NCBI GenBank assembly: GCA_013399875.1
Contig: VXAZ01003887.1
Location: 558,001 to 622,000, forward strand
Origin: Gymnorhina tibicen
Lineage: Eukaryota; Chordata; Aves; Passeriformes; Artamidae
Direction of reading: 5' to 3'
DNA: 64,000 bases
Positions within the stretch are counted from its first letter, which is position 1; each line of letters starts with the position of its first letter. The position numbers were made by a program, and so were the translations under genes. The notes under the pieces were generated by a model, which worked only from the letters and a program-made list of their open reading frames with translations, searched no databases and was not told where the DNA came from. Positions 22,201-31,200 of this stretch are shown one piece after another.

Positions 22201-25200
22201 GTACAAAGAGAAAATCAAAGTTTGGAAGTACATATAGCAGCAATGATTTACCTCCTTCAAACTGATAATGAAAAATAAAATTTCTTTGGAATTCTACAAG
22301 TGGAATAGAAGAACACTGAACAAGGGGGAGCTGTAACATTACAGAGCTTATGGTATTTACATCAGTAGATTATTCTGCTACATGACAGCATATAGATAAA
22401 CTTAGATTTAAAAATACATGCAACTTCCACAGCTTGCTAAAGCAAGCTAAATTGAGCTTGAAGATGCTCATTACTATAATGTGCTGAACAGAGAAAATAC
22501 ATGCTAACTCATACTATTTTAAATAAAACCATAAATAATGTAAAACCAACAATAAGATACAGCACTAGGCATTATGCTGAGAACTTAGCTGCATGAATGT
22601 CTTAGAACTAAACATGAACTTGACTGATTTTGTACATCTTTTTTAATAAATTCAGGTTTCAAAAAAGCATGCTAGTTGGACTACAGAAGTTACAGAGGAA
22701 TAAACTGACAAATAGTTGAAACATATAATGGTAGCTAATTTTCTTTTCAAGATCTTCCTTAGTATGAGGAGAGGTCCTTTCTCCCAATGGAGACTTTGAT
22801 TATACTCAATCACAACACTGATCCACAGATGCACTGTTTGTCTGACTGAAATAAAACCACTTGCAGAAAACAGGGTTGTGATTTTCCTCACTTAGCACAG
22901 TCACTGAACTAAATATGTACACTAAATATGTATACTATCAGCACTGGAAAGGCAAGCATAAATATTTCCTTTACTATTAGCCTGCAATTTGACAAATTGA
23001 TACATCTGTGGCAGAATTACAAGAAACACTAGTTTTTCTAGGCTGACTGTTGGGGTTTTTTTCATTATTTTCCCTCTGCTGGACAATGAGCCATTTCCCA
23101 GTGTTGTAGTCATTCATACATAGCTTCACTAGTGGTAATGTATCAGATAGAAGGGATTTTAGCTACATTCTTCTCTGCCATACAGATTACTGTGTATTTC
23201 CCCTCTGGCTTGGAAACATTAAGTATTGCCTTAGTACCAAACAAAAGGGTTTTGCAATGGCGTAAAGTGCATAGCTTGCAAAAACAAAGCAGAGAAGGAA
23301 TAATTTGTCTTTCTACACTCCTGAAAAGGTGTTTCTTAAGTGTCAATATCCCTGCCAAATAAAAGCTGAAATACACAAGAGAGTATTTAATCTCCCTGTT
23401 AAGACTGAATCAGAGCAGTGATGTAAAACTTACAAGTGTAAAGAGTAAAGCAAATACAGCCTACTTAGACAGTGTAAAAACTGTTGAGCTTCATCCAGAT
23501 ATGATCCAAGACTCCAGCTATGAAAAACTGCCAGGATGAAGAACGGGGAGGAACGCTCATGTTCAGAACAAGGGGAGGGATTGATTGTAAGGGTAGATGA
23601 CACTGACTGCCTATCTGTATTTGGAGAAAAAGCCTTCATTTCTACACCTCCTGTGGTTCAGATACATAAAGATGAATGGAAAAGACTCAACCTGAAGCAA
23701 GGAACTGCCACATTTGAAGAATGTGATTGGGTCAGGCAAGCTTACGGCACCTAGTAAGTTAAGTTTAGAGCTACTGTAAAAAGAAAAGTTAATGAACATT
23801 TCGTACACACATTTCCATTCAGCCATCAAGTCAGTAATCAATCAATCCCACATTTTGTCTACTAGTAAAATATTATTATGACAAAACCCAGAACGAGTAA
23901 AATAAGTCAGCTGGTTGCATGTTTTCCAAATACAATTTTGCCATCAAAACAAAATGGGAACTAAGAATCAAGACCCTGTAACTCAAAGAAGAATCACAGC
24001 CCAAATTAATTTCTGGATCACAAACATTTCAGTAACAAACCAGTGGAAGTTAGTAACGCAAGGCTGTGTACAAAGTTGTAAAGCTAAAGCACCTTTTGCG
24101 TATCAATTAGAGTAACCAAAACAACTCTCAGAATAAACAGTGTTGTCCAAAAAACCTTCAATCCATCAAAAGTGCAACCACACCCAACAGGAATCTTCAA
24201 CATGATAGAAGACTCCTGATGCAATTAAAGGTTGAGGCTGTTACTGGGACAAGAGCTGTGTGATTTCATGTGGGTTAGTAAGAAAGTTCTATAGTATCAA
24301 TCCTTTCCTTGCAGGGAAGAGTACAGAGAGGTAAAGCTTTGGCTGTGTTAGTTACAAATAAGATGAAGTCAAACTATAAACAAACCACCAAGAAAGAAGA
24401 AGAGAGAGAACCCCCTACCCAATCACATCGACCACTCCATGGAGCTCAGAGTCAATCAGCATGACAAAGGAAATGGGCTCCCACAGTCTATCGCTGGCTA
24501 TGATCCTCACCTGCTCCAGACCATGCTTATCCAATGTGTACCTCAACAGCTTGGGAAAAAAAAGGAGAGCAAAGAACAGAGAGAAGGGACAAATAAAAAA
24601 AATGGTTTTCAAATTGTCAAAACTTTATATTGGGAAAGGCAGCATCTTCTTCAGCACTATTTGAACATAGCTGAAAAAACTACTATGCTTCAATTCATGT
24701 TTTTGTAACTTGGACAACTGTTTCACCAAACAAAACATACAAGATTGTCAAGCACAGAGTCACTTTAAAGGACACCGTCTTCCTCTACTATACTGAATCA
24801 CAAAATACATTATAAAAGGAAAAATTAAAAATATTTTGTTCTTCTTACAGACACGAAAGTACAGATAAAGACAAAGCATATCACGTTTTGCAAGATACTC
24901 TGCATATCAGGCACTTAGATGCTACAGTGCTGATGGTTAAACTACAAGGACCTCATACAGGGCAAGGACAATTGAACTATAATTTATAAACCTTGCAAAA
25001 GCACAGTAAACATTTCCTTAAAAACAGGAGTTGATGCCCCCTACTCTCCCCGCTAATCAGCTATTTCAGTTTAACAGTGAAGCAACCACAAATTAAGATG
25101 AGCTCTTCCTAAACACAAGCAACAAAGGTAACAACACCAGACACATGCACACCTTATTACCCAACTGTGTTTTATTTCAATCTTTAAAATTGCAACTACT

Positions 25201-28200: not shown

Positions 28201-31200
28201 CCAACTACCTCAATAGCATCATTAAGATAGGGATCAACTATCATCTCTTTTGAGACGTTCCAATCTCCATCCGCAGCGATGATGCCAATGTTCCATAGAC
28301 CCAGTCTGTCCAAAGAATGTCGAAGCACCTTAGTAACAGATAACACCACTTAAAGTACAGCCTTCATCAATGAGGCAACATGAAAATTTAAGACTGAAAA
28401 CAAGAACTGTAGAAAGAGTCAGCGGAAGTCTATTTTCCGACGAGGATGGATAAGGAAAGTTCTCACTTCTCAAACAAGAGCTATAGCAACTAAGACAAAG
28501 TTAATGGTAAGTATTTTTAAAACTGAAGGGTTATCATTGACATTGAGATAGTCATTACACAAAAATGGGCTTCTCATCACTTGGATAACTTTTGACACCA
28601 CATGTGCATACATATACTCCACTTGGACACTCTCAACATACTGACTCCATTGCATGCGTGTAATTCATTACACAAAAGTAATGGATTTATCATAAAGTCA
28701 GTCATACTAAGCTGATCTAAAAATGACAGCTGGCTGAAACGTGGAAGCGGACATACCTCCACAAGTTATCAGAAGCGAAAGCTAATCAAAGCTGATCAAA
28801 ATAAAAGTGTATTGAAAAAACAGGGATTGAAGTTTTAAAACAAAGAAGACCTTCTATCCATGCAGCTCTCTAAAAAACCAGAAATCTTTGCCAAACAACT
28901 GTCCTGTTCATGTGAAGAGCATCTAAACATTCTTTTCACTGCCCATTTGACATAACAAAAAAAATCCTTGATGTTTTAAGTGTTTAATTTTTGAGTTTAC
29001 CCACTTCTTGGTTCTCATGTTTCACTAGCTTTCCCTGAAAGTAATAAATAAAACTAGAATTGCGTATTTTTAACAAAACTGAGGGCAACCAAATTTGAAT
29101 TCAAAGATGCCAGCAGAAAAGAATTCCTATTGTGTCTTTCCAGCTTCTCCTTACTATTTCACTGTTAAAGATGATAAACAGCTCACATTTGTCTGTGGAA
29201 TTTCTTAGGTAAAAATATACCCATGCAAAATATACTCAGCCTTAATAGATAAGAATGAACCACACTTAGGGCTGGTATTATCTGAAAACTCAAATCATAA
29301 ATTTAAAAAAATAAAAAATAAAAAACATATTTTCAGCAGCTTGCACATACAGCTGCATCTGAAAAAAACCCCACATCACTCCACAATCTAAAATGCTTTT
29401 TTCAGTCTTAGATATAAAGAAATTATGCACTGTGTGCATGCATGCGGAAGATTTTGCAACTTGATTCAAAGATCAGTAGGCATGAATCCTTAAACAATTT
29501 CTTGTAATAGCTCTCTAGCAACGTGAAGAAGAATATGGAGCATTTCTATTTTTCATGTAGTCAAATAAGGACAGAAATCAAATTCTAAGTGTTGATGACA
29601 ATCAAAGCCTAGATCTAAAACTAATTAGGACATAAAACTTACTAAGAAGAAGAAAAGTAGAAATGAAGTTCTGTTCAGCTATTTGAAACTCCTGAAACAC
29701 AAAGTATACCAGAAGAAAAATTCATAATACTAGAAGGTCCTAGCAATTTAAAGCTCTCTAGCTACCTAGACATTCAGAAAAATTGCCTAACCATAGAGAC
29801 AGGTCAGAAGAACAAAATGAACGGCTGCAGAACTTCCATGCTGAAAGAGAAGTACCAAGGACACAGAACTGCATGCACTCAAAATGCACTCCACAATAAT
29901 ATATGCAGAACAGTTCCCCCACACCCAGTATGCATATAACTGAAAGAACAGGGTCTTCTTGAACAAGAATTTATAAGCATTAGAATCCCCATTTCTTTTT
30001 TCTTTTTTTTTTTTTCTACTGAATAAGAAACATAACTAGTGCCTTAGTGGATGAAGTATTTAGAATAATGTCTTACAAGTAAAAATTTAGCTAGATAACT
30101 AAGAGCTTATCTGTGATGTATTTAACAGGAATTACAGAAAATGTTTGGTGTGCAGCAGCACACTTCAGTAAATTGACCTCTTGTGAAATGGCCAACTGCA
30201 AATAGAACTATCGTGCTGATGAGAGAAGAGGTGCCAATTGACACTGTAAGAGAATGAATAGTAAAACAGGTGTTCAATAAAAAACCTCTTATCAGTTAAC
30301 ATACAGTAGAAGGAAGGCCAAAACTTTTCAGCAAATATTTGGGTGATTTTAAGGCCAGATTTTAAACTGAATATTCAGCTCTAGAAGCCAAAAGCTCAGT
30401 CCCAACTCAACAGCATTCAAAAAGCTATAAAGTAGAATGTTGCACCTAGACTCAATAGTTTATTCTCCATATTCTTTTTCCCCACATGAGGAAGCCAAGA
30501 CAAATAGATGAGAAAGTCTCCAGGTGATGTGACATATTTTTGGGATTGTTCAGCCTGGAGAAGAGAAGGTTTTGGGGTGACCTAATTGCTGCCTTTCAGT
30601 ACCTGAAGGGAGCCTACAAGAAAAGATGGAGGACCTTTTACAATAGCAGGTAGTGATAGGACAAGGGGAATGGATGGGAATGCCCCAACCCTGGAAGCAT
30701 TCAGGGCCATGCTGGAGGAGGTTTTGAGCAACATGGTCTAGCAGAAGGTGTCCCTGCCCATGGGAGCAGGAATGGAACTGGATGATCTTTAAAGTCCCTT
30801 CCAACACAAGCCATTCTATGATTCTCTAAGTCTTACTTGCTTTTAAGAAGAGGTAATGCCATTGTGTCTTAGCCTCAAAGCAACAACAAGGAAAGGAACA
30901 AAGCAGGAGTTTGTGCTTAAGAGTTCACTGCAAGACCATGTAACAAACCAAAGAGAGCTTTCAAAGCAGAGCAGCGTGGGACTGCAGGAACGTTCAGCAG
31001 TGGGAAATATTAGAGCTCTCTCAAGGTTGGTTATGTGAAATACTGTATCCCTCCAGCTTTTTAGAACAAAACGTACTGAATTTTGCAAAGTTAAAAACAG
31101 AGCCTTTACTGTGGTTTTATAGCAATATTTAAGGGTACTATAATCACAGAACCTAGCTACAGAATTTTAAGCAATTCTAGATCTTGGACTTCTAGCTATA

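Follow-up and report, generated by a model that had tools for sequence, protein, structure and literature searches.

Does the galactosylceramidase gene of birds encode one enzyme or two? The question is raised by a stretch of 64,000 nucleotides (nt) from Gymnorhina tibicen (assembly GCA_013399875.1, contig VXAZ01003887.1, positions 558,001 to 622,000), hereafter called the window. It holds GALC, the gene for the enzyme missing in Krabbe disease, with two homologous versions of exon 7 on the minus strand. Exon 7b (24419..24549, 131 nt) is the version that matches mouse GALC, and exon 7a (28201..28328, 128 nt) is the alternative. They are flanked by exon 6 (31516..31554, 39 nt), which carries the catalytic WNE motif, and by exon 8 (22013..22168), which carries the catalytic SSED motif, both also on the minus strand. 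We consider it very likely that these are two tandem homologous exons spliced one at a time, yielding two galactosylceramidases that differ only in a single segment within the catalytic barrel. The protein made via exons 6-7a-8 is called the 7a form, and that made via exons 6-7b-8 the 7b form.

Both exons are open, enter in phase 0, leave in phase 2, and have AG/GT borders. The 6-7a-8 path gives a stop-free protein of 671 amino acids to the end of the gene, and the 6-7b-8 path gives one of 672. Because each exon enters in phase 0 and leaves in phase 2, including both or skipping both breaks the frame. Joining 6-7a-7b shifts the frame and produces GGC TGT TGA immediately, and direct joining of 6 to 8 runs in the wrong frame to a TAA after 29 codons. 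An earlier note on this DNA had reported the coordinates, lengths, open frames, phases, and borders of the pair together with these four junctions. All were reproduced, and the mutually exclusive coding logic that the note had described is exact. Its hand alignment, which suggested full-length homology (about 17 of 43 residues), was close to the computed value of 16 identical among 42 aligned residues, with 26 differing. The score of this alignment (74) lies beyond chance, as it was reached by none of 5,000 shuffles of 7a (best shuffle, 50). Furthermore, nine open AG..GT stretches of 125, 128, or 131 nt lie between exons 6 and 7b, among which 7a scores 74 and the next best 23. The two exons are adjacent and homologous, and only one of them can be used at a time if the frame is to be kept, as is characteristic of a tandem-duplicated exon pair.

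The pair belongs to a single gene. All 14 matches of a sparrow GALC protein in the genome fall in this locus, and exon 7a DNA has one match in the whole genome (1.02 Gb). The window is free of N, and the protein encoded by its exons 6-7a-8 shares 94-95% identity with five proteins of passerines.

We then examined how widely 7a is spread, using residues 184-292 of the 7a form as a query. The search returned 759 matches in clusters at 90% identity, where one isoform can hide behind the other, and the best 120 were examined. A 7a-type segment is present in 120/120, from sharks to birds, a count that measures the spread of 7a and not the number of species without it, given that the query was itself a 7a form. 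By name, these records include 7 from birds, 10 from lepidosaurs (including the tuatara), 17 from amphibians, 1 from a lungfish, 1 from a coelacanth, 74 from ray-finned fish, and 5 from cartilaginous fish, with 5 unnamed; no mammal, turtle, or crocodile record is among the best 120. In many fishes, frogs, lizards, and one sparrow of this set, the 7a form is the NCBI record “galactocerebrosidase isoform X2,” a model protein whose name implies a second model. Six records from catfish, carp, characin, and their kin (P0127, P0130, P0159, P0177, P0188, and P0199) are 7a-type GALC proteins whose names bear no isoform number, as might be expected of a duplicate gene in which only 7a was kept. Zebrafish has galca and galcb, and there knockdown of one lowers GALC activity while knockdown of the two together abolishes it (PMC7218095).

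The earlier note had proposed comparing 7a across vertebrates, and the exon proves to be kept from shark to bird with a constant length and strong residue constraint. Of 130 vertebrate rows, 120 have precisely 42 residues in the segment that links exon 6 to exon 8 (the remaining 10 are fusions, discussed below), and 7 positions are invariant across 121 sequences. Both exons are conserved as protein. In the ten species with both (the window and nine others), mean bird-fish identity is 0.60 for 7a and 0.69 for 7b, compared to 0.80 for exon 8. These values indicate a somewhat weaker constraint on 7a than on 7b, with both exons far from neutral.

Both forms score as members of glycoside hydrolase family GH59 across three Pfam domains, with the barrel, middle, and lectin domains of the 7a form reaching 407.6, 160.9, and 267.2 bits. 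The catalytic glutamates of WNE and SSED lie in the shared exons 6 and 8 and are therefore kept in the 7a form. The mouse GALC structures 3zr5, 4ccc, and 5nxb contain the 7b version. The 7a form shares their domains and has a predicted fold close to that of mouse GALC (1.3 A), but its helix 4 - strand 5 - helix 5 - strand 6 segment is replaced, is one residue shorter, and lacks the W-E-P loop. This difference is predicted to fall in the loop after strand 5 (AADGDWN versus ASDRLWEP), at the site of the Krabbe mutation E215K. Exon 7 includes E215, and the position of E215K is next to the saposin A site (PMC5764952). No published pocket residue lies in exon 7; the pocket residues are elsewhere. 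The gene likely makes two galactosylceramidases, and the 7a protein would still fold as a GALC and keep the pocket residues that are known. Because the altered loop is beside the saposin A site and the pocket residues lie outside exon 7, the swap would adjust the coupling to saposin, or the way in which lipid is presented, and not catalysis as such.

The same observations can be read differently. Both forms could be real and do the same work, with the pair only setting the level of GALC by tissue, for example by a switch to unproductive splicing. The location of the pocket residues, the shared predicted fold, and the early stops produced by both splice errors suit this explanation. However, 26 of 42 residues differ between the exons and yet each exon is kept within itself across vertebrates, which argues for distinct constraint, and we regard it as unlikely, although it deserves to be kept in view. 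Alternatively, the 7a form could be a folded decoy with weak or no catalysis, and we found no activity measurement of the 7a form that would speak to the contrary. This seems improbable given that the catalytic glutamates are in shared exons and that the predicted structure closely resembles mouse GALC, which is active.

Evidence for the use of 7a comes from five unnamed full-length 7a proteins of 659-667 amino acids (P0124, P0128, P0156, P0182, and P0207), whose source contigs measure 2469, 2250, 2332, 2740, and 2410 nt, respectively. Such contigs are too short for GALC with its introns, and so the five probably represent assembled spliced transcripts. Their nearest kin among the matches are, in the same order, catfish, frog, the carp group, a livebearer, and catfish or characin, and we infer spliced 7a mRNA in four fish-like sources and one frog-like source. 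The frog-like and livebearer-like proteins may be the better evidence that 7a is used by a gene perhaps also holding 7b. As to whether one exon is used per mRNA, 0/5 of these proteins are fused and 0/5 contain 7b, with 7b transcripts not having been looked for. That 7a is instead a decaying relic, never or hardly used, would agree with its mixed acceptor tract (described below) and with having no bird junction reads at hand, but is very improbable against these transcript-like proteins, a length fixed at 42 residues and 7 positions unchanged between sharks and birds, and a bird-fish identity of 0.60.

Eleven of the best 120 records run 7a into 7b (P0093, P0099, P0100, P0101, P0105, P0108, P0121, P0122, P0126, P0132, and P0135). 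P0093 lies outside the 130-row set and is likewise a fused form, and the 7b portion is only partial in P0121 and P0122. The 7a-7b order in these records is common to birds, lizards, and teleosts. The exon borders are trimmed, in either exon, differently from record to record, as would be expected of a predictor faced with true borders that do not keep the frame. Joint use of both exons through such shifted borders, as these 11 predictions would have it, is very improbable, since the borders vary by record, joining at the true borders disrupts the frame, the barrel would presumably have no room for a strand-helix unit present twice, and 0/5 transcript-like proteins are fused.

How might one exon be chosen over the other? 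Splice sites in this one genome were scored on a simple scale of base frequencies. Exon 7a has an acceptor (28329..28350, minus strand) with a mixed pyrimidine tract (0.65) and an AG-free stretch of 18 nt, followed by a good donor, TGG/GTAAGT (28195..28203, minus strand, score 8.8). Exon 7b has an acceptor (24550..24571, minus strand) with an all-pyrimidine tract and an AG-free stretch of 71 nt, and its donor, TGG/GTAGGG, scores 5.0 and leads into a CU-rich tract (24339..24418, minus strand). The 80 nt after 7b contain 14 starts of PTB-type motifs, whereas no other of the 18 exons is followed by more than 7. Among same-size intronic windows, a set that includes the 24339-24418 stretch itself, 14 starts is at the 99th percentile and 19 is the most observed. 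This tract fits a PTB-type regulated choice in the one genome scored. We propose that exon choice would come from competition between unlike splice sites, a weak 7a acceptor with a good donor against a strong 7b acceptor with a weaker donor, that the CU-rich tract next to 7b could take part in it, and that double inclusion or skipping would be cleared by nonsense-mediated decay.

Other means of exclusion were set aside. Steric block seems unlikely for exons 3651 nt apart, as do U12 sites, given the GT-AG borders. The region 22100-31600 holds 22 direct repeat families and 25 inverted pairs (16-35 nt, 71-94% complementary), but we do not claim a docking/selector model of competing RNA structures from this list in one genome. 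Likewise, TGCATG occurs 10 times between exons 6 and 8, a count made without a control and not used as evidence.

To place the age of the pair, we built a tree of 54 rows (14 for 7a, 11 for 7b, and 29 from invertebrates) with 43 columns. The 14 7a rows, shark to bird, form one clade (100/100), and the vertebrate 7a and 7b rows together are separated from the 29 invertebrate rows by a branch with support of 98/92. The 11 7b rows lie dispersed around the base of the tree, in which 31 of 51 inner branches are open. The simplest reading of these sequences is that 7a arose once, before the split of cartilaginous and bony fish. An artificial sequence of invertebrate-like type, used as a second query, gave 800 matches. 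The best 120 were examined, 83 of which were new. Among 72 rows taken as non-vertebrate, 70 could be parsed, and the segment has 42 residues in 59 of them and 43 in 11. These counts prompted the idea that 7a is the older exon and 7b derived. It was dropped because the stem of 7a is long (1.15), the 7b rows are scattered basally and form no clade, and the approximately unbiased test does not reject a topology that unites 7b and the invertebrate rows of 43 residues (p-AU 0.154). Three bivalve GALC isoforms, P0228 (Ruditapes), P0242 (Dreissena), and P0270 (Mya), have a 43-residue segment with LWEPI like that of vertebrate 7b, which could be either a parallel change or a trace of an older exon pair.

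Several points weigh against the interpretation of two exons used in turn to make two enzymes. Of the five transcript-like proteins, three have their closest kin among catfish, carp, or characins, in which the gene might have 7a and no 7b. The proposed use of 7a in birds draws on protein models and sequence, and the presumed enzyme activity of the 7a form on sequence and a structural model. In addition, the query was a 7a form, so that 120/120 shows spread only, and this count covers the best 120 of 759 matches. The tree has only 43 columns, and its 7b rows fail to form one clade. The splice-site scores of 7a and 7b, from one genome, are within the range of the other GALC exons, whose donors run from 3.2 to 11.4 and whose pyrimidine tracts go down to 0.53. 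Finally, E215 does not itself touch saposin A (PMC5764952).

Mutually exclusive tandem exon pairs of vertebrates reportedly include OGDH 4a/4b and U2AF1 3/Ab. The GALC pair is like the tandem-duplicated pairs treated in the main text of PMC9741552 in being adjacent, homologous, ancient, conserved, and probably used one per mRNA. Unlike those, it sits in a lysosomal hydrolase, and mammals apparently keep one of the two exons, so that surveys of human genes would miss the pair. The main texts of PMC9741552 and PMC5740500 do not mention GALC. The main text of PMC12008523, which covers GALC exon structures in 110 sequences, uses “isoform” and “splic” 0 times, and its section 13 mentions exon skipping and rearrangement but not two exon 7s. 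The “exon 7” of a further paper belongs to another gene. In the literature searched on GALC and on duplicated exons, we found no paper describing the 7a/7b pair. The earlier note had known of no description of two exon 7 forms; this holds for the papers searched, but the 7a form was already modelled in NCBI records. The pair is thus an ancient, likely mutually exclusive set of exons in a well-studied disease gene, modelled by NCBI and not found described.

A broader proposal is that jawed vertebrates generally have two GALC enzymes, that the 7a form works with a different saposin or lipid, and that mammals lost 7a. We offer it tentatively and think it somewhat more apt to fail than to hold. 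A loss of 7a in mammals would fit their absence from the best 120 of 759 matches, although turtles and crocodiles are absent from that set too. Should a choice between two versions of the segment next to the saposin A site be common to most other jawed vertebrates, nature has long been testing what GALC can tolerate there, which would bear on GALC-saposin coupling and on the reading of variants near E215. The GALC structures and disease work we encountered are from mouse and human; in fish and birds used as Krabbe models, both forms would need to be counted. Were the broader proposal correct, including the loss in mammals, human Krabbe biology would describe a lineage in which half of the ancestral GALC system is gone.

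The full gene model was obtained by tblastn with a GALC protein query, followed by splice-border checks, and is supported by the Pfam GH59 domains. The coding span (10128..40441, minus strand) has 18 coding exons, 7a and 7b included. Exons 1-6 are at 40441-40274, 39383-39315, 37410-37347, 35340-35227, 33849-33710, and 31554-31516. From exon 8 on, they are at 22168-22013, 19954-19830, 18659-18532, 18085-17996, and 16687-16604, and the last are at 16263-16119, 15618-15438, 13144-12981, 11350-11274, and 10271-10128, all on the minus strand. Some GALC proteins of the survey, from sponges or unnamed sources (P0217, P0218, and P0222), have the extra domains PF14200 and PF00652, which we take to be ricin-type lectins and which are not in the window GALC. 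Adjoining GALC is an intact open reading frame of 349 amino acids (48877-49926, plus strand) that presumably resembles the seven-helix receptor GPR65.
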